Positions 36,156-42,025 of a DNA stretch of 42,928 nt are shown one piece after another; position 1 is the stretch's first letter; each line of letters starts with the position of its first letter. This stretch comes from a virus. A program made the translations under genes and the position numbers. The stretch covers positions 1 to 42,928 of IMG/VR virus record IMGVR_UViG_3300034118_000669. One strand, 5' to 3'. Below the pieces are notes generated by a model. The model was not told the origin of the DNA. It made no database searches and saw only the letters and a program-made list of their open reading frames with translations.

Positions 36156-36494
36156 ATGACTCAAGACATTCAACGCTACATCACGCTGGCTCAGGGCGTT
36201 TCGGCGCACGCTCAGGCGGGAACGCTGGCCCACGAGACGGCGGTGTCGTTTTGCAAGGTCATCCTGCCGGCGTTGCTGGTGGAGATCGAACTGGCCCAGC
36301 GGGTAGACGCCCGGCTCTCGCAGATGTTCCCGGCCCCTGCCGCCCCGCAGCCGGAGTGTGCTGCCACCGTGTGCAGCAGCCGGCGGGCACCCCCTGCTGG
36401 CGATACGGCTGGGAAGGCCAAGAAGAAGCGGGCCAAGCGGGCCACCAAGAAGTCCAAGAAGAAGGAGGGCAAGGATGTCCACGCTGCTTCGTGA
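36156..36494 (+). CDS. Helical protein with Lys-rich tail (112 aa)
   Basis: ATG 36156 is chosen; the open frame extends upstream only as a shadow of the ERF gene. The 112-aa product has a helical N-terminal half (DIQRYITLAQGVSAHAQAG, VILPALLVEIELAQRVD) and an extremely basic C-terminus, KKKRAKRATKKSKKKEGK. The tail suggests nucleic-acid binding. It overlaps the helicase gene by 20 bp, so it may be a partner in replication or recombination. No named family. Confidence 0.6.
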   Translation: MTQDIQRYITLAQGVSAHAQAGTLAHETAVSFCKVILPALLVEIELAQRVDARLSQMFPAPAAPQPECAATVCSSRRAPPAGDTAGKAKKKRAKRATKKSKKKEGKDVHAAS

Positions 36495-37998
36495 CTACCA
36501 GCGGTCTGCCGTTGCCGCCGTGTGCCGTGCCGCCAAGAGCGGGCAGAAGCGGATCGTCGTGTGCCAGCCGGTCGGCTCCGGAAAGACGGAGGTGATCGCG
36601 GAACTGTGCCGCATCGCCCGCTACCCGCTGCTGATGGTGCCGCTCATCGACCTCATGCGTCAGGGCCGCGACCGTTTGGAACTGCGGCTGGACGAGCGAT
36701 GCGACATCGAGCAGGGCGGGAACTTCGCGGAAAGCATCGAGGGGCTTCGCCGGCGAGTGATCGTCGGGTCGCGTGACAGCCTGCTCTCCAGCGGCCGGTA
36801 CAAGGCGACGGCCTACGAGCGGGTGTCGCTGGTGCTGGTAGACGAGTGCCACGTCGGCATGACGCCCCGCATGGAAGAGATGCTTCGGTGGTTTGAGCAG
36901 CGGGGGGCGACCATCGTCGGCTTCTCGGCCACGCCCTACAAGGGCAAGGGCAAGGCGCTGCGGTACTGGCCTCGCCCGCAGGTTGTCTATTCGCTGATGG
37001 ACGCCATCAACGACGGCTACCTCGTCGGCCCGCAGTGCTTTCTCAGCGAGGCCAAGTCCTTCGACCTGACGCTCGTGGACGACGAGGCTGGCGGCTGGAA
37101 CAAGTCGCAACTGGCGGCCGTCCTGACTGCCGAACACTTCGCCCAAGAGGTCACGAGCCTCGTGCTTTCGACCTACCGCAACCAGCCGTCCGTTGTCTAC
37201 GCCTGCAACCGCAAGCAGGCGGAACTGTTCTGCGAGGTGTTCGCCCGCTACGGCGCCCGTGCCAGTCTCGTCCACTGCCGCCAGAACCCGGAGGTGCGGA
37301 AGGCAAACATGGACGCCTTCCTGGCCGGCGACACCAAGATCATCGTGAACGTCGGGATCTTAGGGTACGGGTGGGACTTTCCGGCCCTCCGCAACGTGTA
37401 TATGGCGGCGCCGACGCGCTCGCTTTCCCGCTACGAGCAACGTCTGGGGAGAGGAACCCGCCCGCTGCCCGGCATCATCCATCCGGAGATGAGCCGAGAC
37501 GAGCGGCTGGCGGCGATTGCGGCCAGCGAGAAGCCGCACTTCAACATCTACGACATCACGGACAGCAGCCGGAGCCACCAACTGCTCAACGCCCTGCAAG
37601 TGCTGGATGCCAAGAGCCGGGTGCAGACGAAGCGCCGCGAGCGGCTGGCCGCATCGCTGTCGATGGAGGGCACCAGTGCCGTCGAGGCGATCCGGCAGGC
37701 CGATGCCGTCGATCTTGCGGAACTGGAGGCCCAAGCGCAGGAGATCATCGAGAAGCGGAAGCGTCTCATCGTCGGCGTGAACTTCGACCATTCCACCCGC
37801 GACCTGTTCTCCGAGCCGGAGGGCAAGAAGAAGCGTGGCTGGCGAATGATGTACGGCAAGTACAAGGGCGTGCCTCTCGACTCCATCCCGGAGGGCTACC
37901 TCTCGTGGGTGCTGGACTCGCAGAAGAAGCAGACGCCGTTCAAGTCTGCGGTTCAGAGGGAACTGAGCCGCCGCAAGGAGAGCCCTGCGTCCCGGTAG
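36475..37998 (+). CDS. SF2 DEAD/DEAH-like helicase with DUF3820-like C-terminus
   Basis: ATG 36475, behind GGAGGGCAAGG, gives a 507-aa protein. Motif I is PVGSGKT (32-38), motif II DECH (123-126) and motif III SAT (151-153). Later conserved blocks include IIVNVGILGYGWDFP and QRLGRGTR near 322-329, the motif VI of SF2 enzymes. It would translocate on or unwind duplex nucleic acid using ATP. At about 458-478, MMYGKYKGVPLDSIPEGYL matches the short GKYKG...IP..YL pattern of DUF3820-like modules, an added C-terminal unit. It follows the recombination genes. Confidence 0.87.
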   Translation: MSTLLRDYQRSAVAAVCRAAKSGQKRIVVCQPVGSGKTEVIAELCRIARYPLLMVPLIDLMRQGRDRLELRLDERCDIEQGGNFAESIEGLRRRVIVGSRDSLLSSGRYKATAYERVSLVLVDECHVGMTPRMEEMLRWFEQRGATIVGFSATPYKGKGKALRYWPRPQVVYSLMDAINDGYLVGPQCFLSEAKSFDLTLVDDEAGGWNKSQLAAVLTAEHFAQEVTSLVLSTYRNQPSVVYACNRKQAELFCEVFARYGARASLVHCRQNPEVRKANMDAFLAGDTKIIVNVGILGYGWDFPALRNVYMAAPTRSLSRYEQRLGRGTRPLPGIIHPEMSRDERLAAIAASEKPHFNIYDITDSSRSHQLLNALQVLDAKSRVQTKRRERLAASLSMEGTSAVEAIRQADAVDLAELEAQAQEIIEKRKRLIVGVNFDHSTRDLFSEPEGKKKRGWRMMYGKYKGVPLDSIPEGYLSWVLDSQKKQTPFKSAVQRELSRRKESPASR

Positions 37999-38006
37999 GA
38001 GGCCGC

Positions 38007-38405
38007 GTGAGTGAAGGATCACCAGATGAGCGTTTCATATCTGAAATCGGCGTGGCAATGGCTGTGGAGCGGCTGCTTCGGGCAGGCTTCCACGTTGCCG
38101 TTCCCATCGTGGACGACGGCTACGACCTGCTGGCCTTCGATGTGCGTCGGTATTGGCGCATCCAGGTCAAGGCGTCCTCGTCTCGTGGCCCGAACCGGTC
38201 GCGGATTCGCATCCAACGCGGGAGCGACAAGCAGCATGTGTATGACCCGCGTCACGTCGATGCGTTCGTTCTTGTCAACACGCGGACGAACGTCGTCATG
38301 TGCGTTCCCGTGTCGGAAACAAACGGCAGGCGGTGGGTCTCCTGGCGGGCTGCGGACAAGTGGTCAGACATGGGCGTCCTCCGGAGCATCCCCCGCATGA
38401 GGTGA
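38007..38405 (+). CDS. Small PD-(D/E)XK nuclease
   Basis: GTG 38007 has AGGAGG (37997-38002) 4 nt upstream. The 132-aa protein carries the fold signature: Glu21 in AVERLLRAGF, Asp40 in DDGYDLLAF, and Gln53-Val-Lys55 in RIQVKAS. A basic stretch SRGPNRSRIRIQRG follows. This resembles small endonucleases of the group I intron-associated PDDEXK_5 type or archaeal-resolvase-like enzymes. The partner substrate is unknown; branched or cleaved phage DNA is plausible, given the helicase directly before it. The gene ends at the edge of the structured noncoding region. Confidence 0.75.
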   Translation: MSEGSPDERFISEIGVAMAVERLLRAGFHVAVPIVDDGYDLLAFDVRRYWRIQVKASSSRGPNRSRIRIQRGSDKQHVYDPRHVDAFVLVNTRTNVVMCVPVSETNGRRWVSWRAADKWSDMGVLRSIPRMR

Positions 38406-38738
38406 GCCGCATCGACAATCTGAACGGCTGCGTGGGTTGGGAGAACCTCTGGCACGCAGACGCATGACCCACGACCAGAAGGGATCGTGACGAAAGTGGG
38501 TAGGCCAGCCGCAAGCGACAGGGCCAAGTCACGCGGACAGCAGGATGTCCGATAAGCAGGTCGCATGCCTCCGCCCCTGCGGCAAGGAGGACACCCCTAC
38601 GTCCTAACTGACAGTGGGCAGGTGGCGGCTAACCCTAGCCTTCGGGCTGGGGATTAGTCGCCGTCCACCCGCAGCGAGCCTTCAAACAGTGAGCAGGTTT
38701 CTTTCACAGATCGCTTTTTCACCAAAGGAGTGATGGGT
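38406..38738 (+). ncRNA. Large structured noncoding region, candidate novel RNA
   Basis: There is no supported gene in these 333 bases, in a genome otherwise almost without gaps. Paired segments include CGTGGGT (38431-38437) / ACCCACG (38467-38473), and CGGACA (38534-38539) / TGTCCG (38546-38551). CCTCC (38568-38572) / GGAGG (38586-38590) has an inner GCC/GGC. The long hairpin is listed separately. ACCCAC (38467-38472) can instead pair with GTGGGT (38496-38501), so two helices compete. AGGAC (38588-38592) / GTCCT (38601-38605) competes with CCTCC/GGAGG. The end holds the ribosome site for the next gene, so a free RNA or a long regulatory leader are both possible. I could not match it to tRNA, tmRNA, RNase P or HEARO patterns. 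Confidence 0.6.
38608..38674 (+). other. Long UUCG-capped hairpin inside the noncoding region
   Basis: The terminal part is near perfect: GGCGGCTAA (38624-38632) pairs with TTAGTCGCC (38654-38662) with one G-U pair. After a bulged A at 38653, CCCTAGCC (38633-38640) pairs with GGCTGGGG (38645-38652), again with one G-U, closing C-UUCG-G. Outer pairs GGG (38616-38618) / CCC (38668-38670) and CTG (38608-38610) / CAG (38672-38674) extend it. There is no following T run, so it is not a simple terminator. Confidence 0.72.
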
Positions 38739-38987
38739 ATGGCTGGATTCATGGCGCAGGCGTTGGGCGTTCTTCTCAAAGAAAACAAGGGGTTGGTGGA
38801 TGCCGCCAAAAGACTGGGCGGGCTGGCCGCTTGTCGTCAGGAGAAGTTTGAGCACAGCGTGGACTTGAACACGAAAGAGGAGTCGCATCGGTACGTCATC
38901 GCGTTCGCCACTGAGGAGGACGCAGAGAACTTTGCCCATGCCGTGTGGGACATCGTGGATTTGACAGCGGAGAGGGGCGATGAGTGA
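38739..38987 (+). CDS. Small protein after the structured region (82 aa)
   Basis: ATG 38739 is preferred over GTG 38730 and ATG 38733 because AAGGAG (38725-38730) has 8-nt spacing to it. The product starts with a Met/Ala/Leu helix (FMAQALGVLLKENKGLVDAAKRLGG) and continues with a beta-alpha segment EESHRYVIAFATEEDAENFAHAVWDI. It could be a small regulator or adaptor. No family recognised. Its position directly behind the structured region suggests it may be controlled by it. The stop overlaps the next ATG. Confidence 0.58.
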   Translation: MAGFMAQALGVLLKENKGLVDAAKRLGGLAACRQEKFEHSVDLNTKEESHRYVIAFATEEDAENFAHAVWDIVDLTAERGDE

Positions 38988-39681
38988 TGGACGCAAAGAA
39001 CTGTCGTCGTTCGCCGCCGAGTACGGCTTCTGTGCGGTGTGCTGGGGCCGAGAGTCCCTGCACATCCACCACTTGCAGCAGGGGGCCGGTCGCTCCCACG
39101 ACCGCAGGAACCTCCTGCGGCTCTGCATGTGGTGCCACGAAGGGCTGCACTTTGGCGGCAAGCACGACCTCAAGAAAGGCATGCTGCTCACCGCCAAGCG
39201 AGAGGTTGACGACGCCAACTACGACCCGTCGTGTCTGGCTTCGCTCCGTCTCAAGAGGCATCTCGGATACGGCCCGGAGCGGTATCCGGTGCGTGTGTTT
39301 GTGTTTCGCAGGAAGAACGGAATCCCGAAGGAGTTGAAGGACATGGCGATCAACAGCCGGCAGAAGGGCAAGCGTGGAGAACTGGAGGCAGCGGCCGAGT
39401 GGAACCGTCTGGTGCCGCAGGCCCACTCGCGTCGGTCGCAGCAGCACAGCGGAACCGAGTCCGCCAGCGACCTCATCTCTCCTGGCACGCCGCACTTGTG
39501 GATGGAGGTGAAGCGGGTTGAGCGTGGGCTCAACCTGCACGCCGTCATGGAGAAGTCCCGTGAGCAGTGCGGCGAACTCTGCCCGGTGGTGCTGCACCGG
39601 CAGAACGAGAAGGAGTGGCTTGTGACGTTCCCGCTGGAGCAGATCAAGCGGTTCGTGCAGCAGGTGCAAGGAGCAATGTGA
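38980..39681 (+). CDS. HNH endonuclease fused to a resolvase-like PD-(D/E)XK nuclease
   Basis: ATG 38980 overlaps the previous gene. The 233-aa protein joins two nuclease domains. Residues 15-60 form a zinc HNH domain: Cys18-x2-Cys21, His28/His30/His31, Asn44 and Cys49-x2-Cys52-His53. From Met122, INSRQKGKRGELEAAAEW opens a Holliday-junction-resolvase-like PD-(D/E)XK domain with Glu134, Asp164 in SASDL and Glu176-Val-Lys178. The second half begins exactly like free-standing phage resolvases. An AAGGAG at 39328-39333 precedes ATG 39343, so a separate short product is likely too. HNH could nick at packaging or cos-like sites; the second half would resolve branched DNA. Confidence 0.78.
   Translation: MSDGRKELSSFAAEYGFCAVCWGRESLHIHHLQQGAGRSHDRRNLLRLCMWCHEGLHFGGKHDLKKGMLLTAKREVDDANYDPSCLASLRLKRHLGYGPERYPVRVFVFRRKNGIPKELKDMAINSRQKGKRGELEAAAEWNRLVPQAHSRRSQQHSGTESASDLISPGTPHLWMEVKRVERGLNLHAVMEKSREQCGELCPVVLHRQNEKEWLVTFPLEQIKRFVQQVQGAM
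39328..39345 (+). promoter_or_regulatory. Internal ribosome-binding site and start for the resolvase half
   Basis: AAGGAG (39328-39333) lies 9 nt before the internal ATG 39343, exactly where the resolvase-like domain begins. Such a site would let the second domain be made alone, as 112 residues ending at 39681. Internal in-frame starts with this quality are rare by chance, but expression is not shown. Confidence 0.5.
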
Positions 39682-39938
39682 TGAACGCACGGGTCATCGA
39701 CTGGGACGGAGACGACGGCGAGGAGGAGGAAGTCCACAGTCCGATCCCGGACAAGGACGGCTGGGTCAATCTCAAGGAGGGCAAGGGCGATGCGGGTAAC
39801 GCTGGAGTGGTTCGAAGTCAGCCGAGCGGCGCTGGTGGGCGTAAGCCGAAACGTCGAGGCTCTGCGAAAGGGTCTGCAAAACGCCCGTCCCACAAACGAA
39901 AACGACTGGCACGTTCACATTCTCGGCGCTCTCGGTGA
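39681..39938 (+). CDS. Small charged protein, doubtful C-terminus (85 aa)
   Basis: ATG 39681 shares a base with the previous TGA. The first 36 residues are acidic (DWDGDDGEEEEVHS, then PDKDGWVNLKEG) and look like a real small protein. After the next gene's start at 39790 the frame becomes a run of Arg, Lys, Ser and Gly (RKPKRRGSAKGSAKRPSHKRK), which is what an out-of-frame reading of this GC-rich gene would give. The frame overlaps the 39790 gene by 149 bp. Either the gene is real with a basic tail or only the first half matters. Confidence 0.42.
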   Translation: MNARVIDWDGDDGEEEEVHSPIPDKDGWVNLKEGKGDAGNAGVVRSQPSGAGGRKPKRRGSAKGSAKRPSHKRKRLARSHSRRSR

Positions 39939-40263
39939 GTGTGCGTTTGCCAAAGCAACCAACCGGTACTGGAACGGCAGTGTCAACACCTTCAAGTCAG
40001 GCGGCGACGTGGGCGACAGCATCCAGGTGCGCACGCGATCCAAGCACTTCTACGAACTCATCGTGCGGGACGGCGACAGAGACACGGACGTGTTCGTCCT
40101 CGTCACTGGCGGCCCTCACGAGTTCACCATTCGTGGCTGGATGCCTGCGTCGGAGGCGAAGCAGCCGAAGTTCAAGGCCAACTACGGCGGATACGGCGAT
40201 GCGTATTTCGTCCCGCAGTCGGCGCTGCGTGCGATTGACCCGCTTGTGTGCAAGGAGTGCTAG
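39790..40263 (+). CDS. PD-(D/E)XK-like phage protein (157 aa)
   Basis: ATG 39790 follows CAAGGAGGGCAAGGG. The 157-aa product shows HILGALGECAFAKATNRYW with Glu50, SVNTFKSGGDVG with Asp73, and QVRTRSK with Gln79-Val-Arg81 in place of the usual Glu-x-Lys. FVLVTGG and a Trp-Met segment follow, and YFVPQSALR near the end. I recognise this layout from a common small phage protein with a restriction-nuclease-like fold. The Lys-to-Arg change at the third position may weaken catalysis. It is the fourth nuclease-fold gene in this region. Substrate unknown. Confidence 0.68.
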   Translation: MRVTLEWFEVSRAALVGVSRNVEALRKGLQNARPTNENDWHVHILGALGECAFAKATNRYWNGSVNTFKSGGDVGDSIQVRTRSKHFYELIVRDGDRDTDVFVLVTGGPHEFTIRGWMPASEAKQPKFKANYGGYGDAYFVPQSALRAIDPLVCKEC

Positions 40264-40266
40264 AGC

Positions 40267-40782
40267 ATGAACACCACCACGATGCAGACCTACACCGGAA
40301 AACTGATCGACCTTGCGAACTTCCGCGAGGAGGACGTTCGACTGCCTGACATCTCGCACGCCCTGTCCATCATCAACCGCTTCACCGGGCACAGCAAAGT
40401 GCCGTACTCGGTGGCCCAGCACAGCGTCATGGTGAGCCGGCTGACGCAGCCAGAGAACGCACTGTGGGGGCTGCTGCACGATGCCAGCGAGGCGTACCTG
40501 GGAGACGTAGCCACGCCCCTCAAGAACTGCCTGCCCGGCTACCGGGAACTGGAGGAGCATGTCCAGCGGACGATTGCCCGCGTGTTCTACCTGCCCTGGC
40601 CTATGCCGTCGGACGTGAAGACGGCGGACCTGCGGGCGCTGATGGGCGAGAAGCGGGACATCGTTCCCGGCACTGCCGACTGGGGGATCGACGTGGAGCC
40701 AGCGTGCGGGCCCATCAACCCGTACTGCTGGACGCAAGCCAAGACGTTGTTTGAGGACCGCTACAAGGAGTTGGTGCCATGA
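40267..40782 (+). CDS. HD-domain nucleotide phosphohydrolase
   Basis: ATG 40267 lies 3 bp after the previous stop. The 171-aa protein has the YfbR-like HD signature: His52 in VAQHS, His71-Asp72 in LLHDASEAYLGDVATPLK, and a late Asp121 in VKTADLRALMGEK. These residues hold the divalent metal for hydrolysis of nucleotide phosphates. In Z-genome phages, a related HD enzyme (DatZ) removes dATP. Here it is directly followed by a MazZ-like gene, with a 4-bp ATGA overlap. Which nucleotide this enzyme prefers cannot be read from sequence. Confidence 0.83.
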   Translation: MNTTTMQTYTGKLIDLANFREEDVRLPDISHALSIINRFTGHSKVPYSVAQHSVMVSRLTQPENALWGLLHDASEAYLGDVATPLKNCLPGYRELEEHVQRTIARVFYLPWPMPSDVKTADLRALMGEKRDIVPGTADWGIDVEPACGPINPYCWTQAKTLFEDRYKELVP

Positions 40783-41138
40783 CGAAGGTGACGCATGATC
40801 GGACGGTGAATTACGCCAGTGGGGCCGTGAGGTCGAGCGATGCGGAGGCGACGAGGTACGACCTCATCTCCCCCATCGGGCTCGCTGCGGTGGCGGCGGC
40901 GTGCGCTGAGGGGGCTGAAAAATACGGGGACTACAACTGGGAGAAGGGCATGCCGGCCAACGACATGCTGAACCATGCCCTGCGTCACATCTACATGTTC
41001 CTCTCCGGCAACCGGGACGAGGATCACTTGGGCCACGCCGCCTGGAATCTGATGGCGGCAATCCACTCGCTCGAGGTCTGGCCGCACCTCAACGAAGGGA
41101 CTCTCCGGAGCGGCTACTGCGAGGCACCGACAAAGTAA
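40779..41138 (+). CDS. MazZ/DUF5664-type dNTP pyrophosphohydrolase
   Basis: ATG 40779 overlaps the HD gene stop. The 119-aa protein has RYDLISPIGLAAVAAACAEGAEKYGDYNWEKGMP, then NHALRHIYMFLSG, and GNRDEDHLGHAAWNLMAAI. These are the metal-binding Glu, Asp and His positions of the small MazG-related family that includes DUF5664 and MazZ. MazZ converts dGTP (and dATP) to the monophosphate, supplying 2-aminoadenine synthesis with PurZ. Here no PurZ or matching polymerase is visible. An ordinary house-cleaning or nucleotide-salvage role is also possible. Confidence 0.82.
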   Translation: MTKVTHDRTVNYASGAVRSSDAEATRYDLISPIGLAAVAAACAEGAEKYGDYNWEKGMPANDMLNHALRHIYMFLSGNRDEDHLGHAAWNLMAAIHSLEVWPHLNEGTLRSGYCEAPTK

Positions 41139-41686
41139 TGATTGCCGTCGCCGTAATGGACTACGACGACGAGAACATCGTTGAAGAGTGCGAGACTGGA
41201 TGGAAACGGTTTTGCGCTGAGGTTCTCGTTCGGACCCAATACCACGTTCGTGAACTGTGCCTCCGCCATCGGCGGCTGGGGTACAGCCAGATGATCCCCT
41301 CCACCCGTAAGGAGTGGGAGATTCTGCGACGGCAGGTGGCCGCCTACCGGTGGGCATTTGAGGGCACGGGCGGCCTGTTCACATTCGACCAGACGTGCCT
41401 GGATTTGGGCCTCGACCCGGAGATTGTGCGGCGAAAACTGCTGTCTCTGTGCCGGCCTGAGCGGGACATAAATCTTTTGGTGAAGTGGGTCGCCCGCCAA
41501 AAGGAGAAGCCGTATGCCGACCGTAGCCCAGAAGGTAAGGATGCTCGTGGATTGGGCACCGGCCTTGTCGCTGCTGTCCGAGATTTCCGCAGCCGACACG
41601 GCCAAAGAGCGGGCAGAAGGGGCGCTCAAACTCATGCGGTTTGTCGCTACCAAGACGGCCACGCCCATCGACGACGACCTCTGTGA
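41138..41686 (+). CDS. Helix-turn-helix-like small protein, doubtful C-terminus (182 aa)
   Basis: ATG 41138 shares a base with the previous TAA. The first 125 residues read as one protein: a Cys/Glu-rich start, then EILRRQVAAYRWAFEGTGG and FTFDQTCLDLGLDPEIVRRKL. The latter has the F-x-x-x-x-C-x-x-LGLDP-x-x-VRR pattern of small DNA-binding phage proteins. After residue 125 the frame enters the 41514 gene (173-bp overlap) and turns Arg/Gly/His-rich, so that part may be a shadow. A regulatory role is suggested by the helix-turn-helix-like piece only. Confidence 0.5.
   Translation: MIAVAVMDYDDENIVEECETGWKRFCAEVLVRTQYHVRELCLRHRRLGYSQMIPSTRKEWEILRRQVAAYRWAFEGTGGLFTFDQTCLDLGLDPEIVRRKLLSLCRPERDINLLVKWVARQKEKPYADRSPEGKDARGLGTGLVAAVRDFRSRHGQRAGRRGAQTHAVCRYQDGHAHRRRPL
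41461..41513 (+). promoter_or_regulatory. CATAAATC element with hairpin before the 41514 gene
   Basis: Inside the 41138 frame, GCGGGA precedes CATAAATC (41467-41474). A 7-bp inverted repeat CTTTTGG (41474-41480) / CCAAAAG (41497-41503) follows, and AAGGAG (41501-41506) gives a start at ATG 41514. This third copy shares GCGG-x-CATAAATC and the hairpin plus ribosome-site order with 382-409 and 22258-22286, though the loop is longer (16 nt). Confidence 0.5.
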
Positions 41687-41783
41687 GCGGGTGGAGGCGT
41701 GCCTCCTGAGCCCGCAGGGGGAGGAGTTGTTCCGGTACATCGTGGCCCTGGTCACGGCTGTGTCGCAGGCGGAGGTGGACTGA
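41514..41783 (+). CDS. Small helical protein (89 aa)
   Basis: ATG 41514 has AAGGAG (41501-41506) 7 nt upstream. The 89-aa product is helical with leucine/valine-rich amphipathic stretches (AQKVRMLVDWAPALSLLSEIS, ELFRYIVALVTAVSQAEVD) and two cysteines. No clear membrane segment and no family. Its stop overlaps the next ATG. The element before it may give it separate control. It may belong to the small-gene run around the lysis region. Confidence 0.58.
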   Translation: MPTVAQKVRMLVDWAPALSLLSEISAADTAKERAEGALKLMRFVATKTATPIDDDLCERVEACLLSPQGEELFRYIVALVTAVSQAEVD

Positions 41784-42025
41784 TGGGTCTGTATCTGATC
41801 GCCGCTGCCGCGTTTGCGGTGGCTGCGGGAGCGTCCGCCCTGCCGTACCTGACTGCGGCCCGGTCGCCGGGAGTCTCGCCGGTTGACCGGGCCGGGTGGG
41901 TGAATCGCCTGTTCGTCCTTGCGGAGCAGGCGGAGGAGGCTGGGGAGGTGGCAGTGGCGTCGGCGGCACGGTCGCTGATCGCGGCCCTGGTGGCAGAGAA
42001 GGAACTCCCGAAGAAGGCCCGGTAG
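41783..42025 (+). CDS. Small membrane-anchored protein (80 aa)
   Basis: ATG 41783 overlaps the previous TGA; longer frames upstream are shadows. The N-terminus LYLIAAAAFAVAAGASALPYL is a strong hydrophobic segment, followed by a Gly/Pro/Arg turn and a helical, Ala/Glu-rich rest (AEQAEEAGEVAVASAARSLIAAL) ending KKAR. This is a single-pass membrane protein with a short cytoplasmic or periplasmic tail. In phages, such proteins are found as holins, spanins or superinfection proteins. The next gene is also a membrane protein. Which role applies cannot be told. Confidence 0.6.
   Translation: MGLYLIAAAAFAVAAGASALPYLTAARSPGVSPVDRAGWVNRLFVLAEQAEEAGEVAVASAARSLIAALVAEKELPKKAR

Follow-up and report, generated by a model that had tools for sequence, protein, structure and literature searches.

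A probable new phage RNA family in a proposed replication-gene slot for interchangeable RNAs

What do phages keep in a gene-free stretch between a helicase gene and a nuclease gene, and why do they keep it there? The window, that is, the whole 42,928-base stretch of viral DNA analysed here, is a phage genome or a fragment of one, judged by protein matches near both ends: major head and portal proteins near the left end, and a helicase, an exonuclease, an ERF-type annealing protein and an HNH-RusA protein near the right end. For a gap among the latter genes, a preliminary description had proposed a large structured noncoding RNA with competing, switch-like helices. The gap itself proved real, as the plus-strand frames upstream of it stop at 38400 and 38405, the next one starts with a GTG at 38730, and no plus-strand frame of at least 60 aa lies between 38406 and 38729. 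Downstream, the HNH-RusA protein matches Pfam HNH with E 5.6e-4 and 20.4 bits, below the cut-off of 21.4. Within the gene of this protein, ARAGORN calls a minus-strand tRNA-Arg at 39384-39473, which is probably a false positive; Rfam finds no tRNA in the window.

Based on the comparisons reported here, we consider it probable that the gap holds a member of a new phage RNA family, called type A in the following, and that its place is a slot filled by interchangeable RNAs.

Conservation and fold of the type A RNA

All sequence material comes from uncultured viruses. A search with the HNH-RusA protein led to 30 viral loci, some carrying the type A stretch at 79-100% identity and others not. Additionally, two DNA patterns taken from separate conserved parts of type A were scanned over a viral collection; the first found 74 stretches and the second 34, with 30 in common. 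Most of the first pattern's remaining stretches lacked a profile match, and pattern stretches without such a match were dropped as chance. A gapped DNA pattern added one member, L113, while its matches L110-L112 and L114-L117 were discarded as chance. Profile searches first gave 53 matches with 23 distinct sequences (alignment A1), superseded by a final alignment (A4) in which the window is one of 26 distinct sequences.

In this alignment the core of 288 nt in the window, and of 286 to 292 nt across the 26 sequences, aligns end to end, and the members' flanks beyond it align poorly. The window scores 342.8 bits in the covariance model, of which it is itself a part. As judged from these sequences, the unit delimited in Table 1 is a conserved structured RNA. 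Stops occur in every one of the six frames in 25 or 26 of the 26 sequences, so that no conserved reading frame passes through the region; since the lengths also run through all values from 286 to 292, type A is not a gene.

Its strand could be read from the helices, which hold 103 G-U cells and only 5 A-C cells in the 26 sequences. This imbalance points to the plus strand acting as RNA, and argues against a DNA cruciform or an RNA of the opposite strand, neither of which would be expected to show such a bias. The plus-strand fold also beats 100 of 100 dinucleotide shuffles (z -2.74), and on the minus strand (z -2.00) 5 of 100 shuffles are equally good, although fold energies against shuffles are by themselves weak evidence in a GC-rich genome.

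RNAalifold gave 63 nested pairs, 22 of them with compensatory changes, and a covariation analysis freed from the nesting rule added a CGUGAC/GUCACG pseudoknot, a GCAGG/CCUGC loop-loop contact and a GGCC/GGCC helix. The curated fold has 65 pairs, and 97.9% of its 1673 cells in the 26 sequences are paired, compared with 34-38% when the partners are slid, a comparison that favours the fold because it was derived from the same alignment on which it was scored. Changes on both sides of the pair occur in 33 of the 65 pairs, counted irrespective of phylogeny (with no correction of the R-scape type), and none of 500 shuffles reaches the fold on any of five measures. Fold and strand are therefore established computationally, and the structured noncoding phage RNA put forward in the preliminary description is borne out by strong covariation among homologues. 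An inner pairing of P1 was left out of the model, with 51% of its cells paired.

The pseudoknot CGUGAC/GUCACG and the loop-loop contact GCAGG/CCUGC, both absent from the preliminary description, are among the best-supported elements (Table 1). What that description had emphasized fared unevenly. The 17-bp UUCG-capped hairpin (P8 in Table 1) is present in the minimum-energy fold and its stem is conserved, but the CUUCGG sequence occurs in only 12 of the 26 members. ACCCAC at 38467-38472 had been allowed to pair with GTGGGT at either 38432 or 38496, and both pairings are possible in the window, but only the copy at 38496 is well supported (P2): the pairing with 38432 has 90.4% of its cells paired (9 of 500 shuffles as high), one covarying pair of six (472 of 500 as high) and a covariation score that 47 of 500 shuffles reach. 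Similarly, CCTCC/GGAGG had been set against AGGAC/GTCCT; the former stands as P6, but the latter, although able to form in the window, covaries in one of its five pairs, is paired in 87.7% of cells, and on each of the five measures is equalled by 76-106 of 500 shuffles. Both alternative helices thus lack covariation beyond shuffles while their competitors covary, and therefore no conserved switch of the proposed form is supported.

Table 1. Window features around the RNA slot, helices of the predicted type A fold, and candidate noncoding stretches of wider relatives
Feature	Position	Strand	Observations
DNA helicase gene	36358..37998	+	phrog_16, E 1.4e-57; upstream anchor of the RNA slot
Upstream small gene, 129 aa	38011..38400	+	No family match; stop to type A RNA 11 nt
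Type A RNA (predicted), whole conserved unit	38412..38699	+	Alignment of 26 distinct sequences, sharp ends on both sides
P1	38428-38434 with 38453-38459	+	4/7 pairs covary, 97.8% paired
P1-loop pseudoknot UCUGG/CCAGA	38448-38452 with 38475-38479	+	2/5 pairs covary, 97.7% paired
P2 ACCCAC/GUGGGU	38467-38472 with 38496-38501	+	5/6 pairs covary, 96.2% paired
Pseudoknot CGUGAC/GUCACG	38486-38491 with 38528-38533	+	Crosses P2 and P4; 5/6 pairs covary, 100% paired
P3 GGCC/GGCC	38503-38506 with 38522-38525	+	2/4 pairs covary, 95.1% paired
P4 GCGAC/GUCGC	38515-38519 with 38560-38564	+	3/5 pairs covary, 100% paired
P5 hairpin CGGACA/UGUCCG	38534..38551	+	3/6 pairs covary, 98.7% paired
Loop-loop (kissing) contact GCAGG/CCUGC	38540-38544 (P5 loop) with 38576-38580 (P6 loop)	+	3/5 pairs covary, 96.9% paired
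P6 hairpin CCUCC/GGAGG	38568..38590	+	3/5 pairs covary, 92.9% paired
P7 hairpin GUCC/GGGC	38601..38619	+	99.0% paired; 2/4 pairs with one-sided changes, 2 never vary
P8 long hairpin	38621..38669	+	Two counted helices; 5/17 counted pairs covary, 98.9-100% paired
Downstream small gene, 85 aa	38730..38987	+	No family match
HNH + RusA-like nuclease gene	38980..39681	+	phrog_244, E 4.6e-13; downstream anchor of the slot
Candidate D	e.g. L243:453-639		L229, L231, L242, L243, L247, L263; 13/45 pairs compensatory, in a fold fitted to the same 4 sequences
Candidate C1	e.g. L265:2939-3096		L265, L266, L268, L271, L277, L295; 16/69 pairs compensatory, in a fold fitted to the same 5 sequences
Candidate C2			L267, L278, L279, L289; 8/101 pairs compensatory, in a fold fitted to the same 3 sequences
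Candidate E			L228, L230 (only two loci listed); conserved noncoding stretch in a similar place

Two RNA types in one slot and their exchange

The relatives without type A hold a different conserved noncoding stretch, type B, in the same place, flanked upstream by the helicase gene or by a small gene that follows it, and downstream by the HNH-RusA gene. Its alignment A5 holds 31 distinct sequences and A6 uses 25 of them, the near-copies L008, L172, L168, L130 and L021 and the divergent, gapped L191 having been dropped. Type B has a pseudoknotted fold of its own, in which 56 pairs are 93.6% paired over the 25 sequences and 32 of them covary; slid partners are paired in 34-48% of cells, and none of 500 shuffles reaches the fold. 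The G-U bias is weaker than in type A, at 70 G-U and 25 A-C cells with one later-dropped helix counted. A hairpin b8, with 30 of 87 cells paired, was left out. The stretch L191:4730-5028 is a very divergent type B with large gaps, after which an extra frame of 154 aa follows.

Type A and type B were considered as distant homologues, a possibility set aside as neither the profile nor the model of one finds the other. By eye they share a hairpin near the start, with a loop that pairs downstream, and two helices further on that cross each other, a likeness for which no kinship is claimed; a 10-base stretch common to the type A of the window and the type B of L007 is not conserved in type B.

The slot was surveyed in contigs retrieved with the HNH-RusA protein, and not with the RNA, of which the best 80 of 137 were kept, near-identical viruses from different samples being counted separately. 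Of these contigs, 69 extend to the helicase, and each of the 69 has exactly one of the two RNAs, type A in 34 and type B in 35; the count by locus, in which many contigs appear twice, is 85 of 85. Five more contigs of this set carry type A with no helicase in view. The 6 of the 80 with neither RNA have no more than 519 bases ahead of the HNH match, and in relatives the site lies further away than that. In whole records, the type A model finds one full match in each of 10 type A records and none in 15 type B records, extra weak matches being the reverse strand of the long hairpin, while the type B model finds one match in each of 3 type B records and none in 10 type A records or in the L274 record. 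Single copy, mutual exclusion among all loci examined and the lack of empty slots in these contigs are thus direct results of the survey. The loci L283 and L274 lie on one contig of 117,778 bases with two HNH relatives, and type A is found beside L283 only.

The two types have replaced each other repeatedly. In a quickly built tree of 48 distinct HNH-RusA proteins (26 with type B and 22 with type A, one row per protein and RNA type), the fewest label changes by parsimony are 13, and the well-supported branches alone force at least 5. Shuffled labels need 16.2 changes on average and 39-43 of 500 shuffles are as low as 13; since the labels are only slightly less mixed than shuffled ones and 13 of the 45 inner branches are open, some of the changes may be tree error. 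Closer views come from single pairs of loci. L208 with type B and L207 with type A are 97.1% identical over 4,524 bases upstream and 98.6% over 2,577 bases downstream, and between these matching flanks L208 has 315 bases with type B, whereas L207 has 940 bases with type A and a 217-aa frame. L050 and L103 have RNAs that are 97% identical beside helicases that are 53% identical, and in general the correlation between RNA and helicase identity is loose (r 0.37 for type A, pairs of 19 loci). The genes between the slot and the HNH-RusA gene belong to the same families for both types, and the largest downstream protein cluster has 40 members from type A loci and 41 from type B loci, near-copies included.

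The additional frame in L207 (L207:4857-5471), of 204-217 aa directly after type A, has a relative in L087 and is absent from L208. By eye its 217-aa product shows an HNH-like cysteine/histidine spacing, with no Pfam HNH match, and it may be a homing-type nuclease.

These observations bear on the reading that the RNA is a mobile selfish cassette, driven by neighbouring HNH endonucleases and without benefit to the phage. It would agree with the exchange between close relatives and with the HNH-like gene beside type A in L019/L207 and L087 (the motif again seen by eye and without a Pfam HNH match). However, such a gene accompanies only 2 of the 32 type A loci listed, no slot is empty in the 69 of 69 contigs from the best 80 of 137, and the fold is under strong constraint, so that we regard a purely selfish cassette as quite improbable. 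Repeated exchange without empty sites suggests that the job is needed and can be solved in alternative ways, or that difference itself is selected for.

Comparison with known RNAs

Novelty was judged by Rfam 15 (4227 families) and by the open-access literature, including PMC12286853, PMC8040213, PMC2864571 and PMC11061315, at the level of titles and abstract openings; within this corpus, no slot of exchangeable RNAs was found described. The whole window has no Rfam match at gathering scores, and a permissive search of 38200-38900 gave three weak, chance-level matches, none over the type A fold and the best (E 0.077) outside the RNA, in agreement with the preliminary description, to which no matching family had occurred. 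The divergent type A members L108 and L113 have no match up to E 2, and the eight related loci searched for type B (six B and two A) have none at the cut-off, weaker ones being at chance level. Type A would thus appear to be new, in that no match to its fold or to the exchangeable slot turned up in these sources.

Of the known kinds of RNA, the ornate phage RNAs, GOLLD and ROOL among them, come closest to type A. According to the excerpted text of PMC12286853, these two are structured noncoding phage RNAs in similar phage settings, distinct from each other, with multiple pseudoknots in ROOL and with profiles for both in Rfam. They measure 659 to more than 800 nt and lie near tRNA islands, whereas types A and B, likewise structured phage noncoding RNAs, measure about 260-290 nt and lie in a replication operon, in one common slot and without an Rfam match. 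Compared with lengths above about 600 nt and a place near tRNA islands, the window has an RNA of 288 nt and one tRNA call, and the GOLLD and ROOL covariance models match neither in the window nor in the eight related loci (six B and two A). Likewise, phage regulatory RNAs such as the manA and wcaG motifs, as far as the excerpts of PMC2864571 go, are structured RNAs mostly from metagenomes that are present in phages too, as is type A; they are almost exclusively marine and close to metabolic genes, and type A differs in having no Rfam match.

Among named phages and plasmids, a DNA search with the window region found nothing, and the type B RNA of L020 found nothing either, while the type A RNA of L107 gave one 26-base match at E 1. 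The HNH-RusA protein matches two phage records, in its RusA part only and at 37-38%, and the helicase matches 1495 records, all below 60%. A scan of bacterial and archaeal genomes with one type A pattern gave two stretches, neither with a model match.

The neighbouring nuclease gene invites the reading that the RNA is a guide or scaffold of the HNH-RusA protein, in the manner of the OMEGA RNAs of IsrB/HEARO. The genomic association with an HNH gene is constant, and type A is comparable in length to HEARO, given as 343 nt in the excerpts of PMC12286853. However, the same HNH-RusA family follows both type A and type B, which share no detectable similarity, and the protein matches HNH and RusA-like domains only, not the RuvC plus HNH of an IsrB-type neighbour. 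The HEARO model is part of Rfam; it has no match at the gathering score in the window, like every other Rfam family, and none at E up to 5 over 38200-38900. The link of type A to the HNH nuclease is positional only, the same nuclease family following type B in 35 of the 69 contigs, and a guide or scaffold function for this protein is in our judgement very unlikely.

A different reading starts from the crossing helices, which by eye liken types A and B to the folds of group I introns and RNase P RNA. Type A or B could be a ribozyme, self-cleaving or otherwise catalytic, that cuts the operon transcript, with the two types as different catalysts for the same step; the crossing helices of both, the many invariant unpaired positions of type A and the fixed place between two cistrons would suit it. 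Type B recalls the P3/P7 crossing of group I introns, again by eye, but has no helix at the P6 place and a long joint where theirs is very short. Group I models are present in Rfam, and they match neither type; as to insertion in the manner of a group I intron, type A sits between frames, directly after a stop codon. As none of the 4227 Rfam families matches at the cut-off, weaker matches being at chance level, and no known ribozyme class was recognised by eye in the fold, we hold catalysis to be improbable.

Possible modes of action and wider relatives

The start of type A is no more than 11 nt from the stop of a frame of at least 110 codons in all 24 distinct type A loci with such a frame, and type B does so in 25 of 38 loci (range -22 to 72), the frames being counted as read and not as verified genes; in L106, the nearest gene-like frame listed ends 59 nt before the RNA. 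A search of 37900-39100 gave no sigma-70-like promoter and a single terminator-like site, which falls within the upstream gene. Given the tight stop spacing and the absence of a promoter-like site, the simplest account is transcription with the operon, followed by processing or by action in cis. These two features would suit a processed RNA and a cis-acting stretch of the operon mRNA equally well.

The cis-acting alternative holds that the RNA is an intercistronic element controlling translation, decay or read-through (antitermination) of the downstream replication genes, with types A and B as alternative forms. It draws on the position tight between a stop codon and the next start on the coding strand, on the lack of a promoter-like site, on the sole terminator-like site being within the upstream gene, and on the gene order, since the RNA precedes the HNH gene and shares its orientation in every locus that shows both. 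However, the gene to be controlled is not constant: the same small gene families follow the slot in the main lineage, but outlying members have other genes there. In L019 and L087 this is an HNH-like gene, in L107 and L108 the HNH gene itself, at a distance of 93-95 nt, and a gene for a small protein that weakly matches a zinc finger also occurs. The conserved fold, moreover, shows no sign of two states. We therefore rate a cis element as rather unlikely.

We tentatively prefer, at somewhat less than an even chance, a stand-alone mode of action over regulation of one neighbouring gene. It is favoured by the elaborate fold, by the variable adjacent gene in outlying members, and by the replacement of the RNA by a different one amid unchanged neighbours. 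Type A itself is probably a compact molecule, with a pseudoknot and a loop-loop contact, in a slot of the replication and recombination gene cluster that type B fills in relatives, the two being exchanged as cassettes between phages. Their position and mutual exclusion suggest that they may do the same or a rival job. In the stand-alone mode, the RNA would be transcribed with the operon, cut out, and could work as a stable separate molecule, for example by binding a host factor or as the scaffold of an RNA-protein particle. Selection for variety might maintain the exchange, for instance through evasion of a factor, from the host or a rival phage, by which one form is recognised.

The place among recombination and helicase genes also allows for a replication-origin or primer RNA, whose transcript would start nearby DNA replication and of which types A and B would be alternative origin types. 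The 1-kb bins from that of the RNA onwards have a clearly positive GC skew, at 0.114, 0.098, 0.047 and 0.113 in the last four bins (38001-42000), where most of the window is unlike this and the bins before range from -0.067 to 0.069; however, this skew comes from one genome fragment in coarse bins, and among the readings weighed here an origin seems the least probable.

We also asked how far the slot extends. A second protein search with distant HNH sequences gave, from the best 80 of 187 relatives, 75 new loci, many of them in contigs already known from the first survey, and these comprise 10 with type A, 25 with type B and 40 with neither. The rule of A or B thus applies within the lineage but does not extend to every phage that has an HNH gene of this sort. 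When 34 of the loci with neither were screened for gaps between frames, several proved to have noncoding stretches of other kinds, likewise conserved, ahead of the HNH gene, for which further members were found by profile (Table 1), and Rfam gave only two tRNA matches in the 24 loci scanned. The stretches D, C1, C2 and E would accordingly count as candidate leads and not as established families.

Large structured bacterial RNAs are rare, and several have proved to be catalysts or parts of RNA-protein machines. Here, two different RNAs occupy one place in one phage lineage and repeatedly replace each other, which opens the function of such RNAs to tests by allele exchange and suggests that RNA modules can pass between phages as freely as protein modules do. 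The evidence seems to us about evenly poised on the wider proposal that an uncultured phage group keeps one slot requiring a large folded RNA, filled by several unrelated-looking RNA classes (A, B, and in more distant relatives possibly C1, C2, D and E) and swapped like immunity or anti-defence alleles; if true, phages would have in RNA a counterpart to their exchangeable protein modules. As to the downstream anchor of the slot, HNH and RusA are separate frames in distant phages (L107, L127, L138, L143) and are fused in the lineage of the window.
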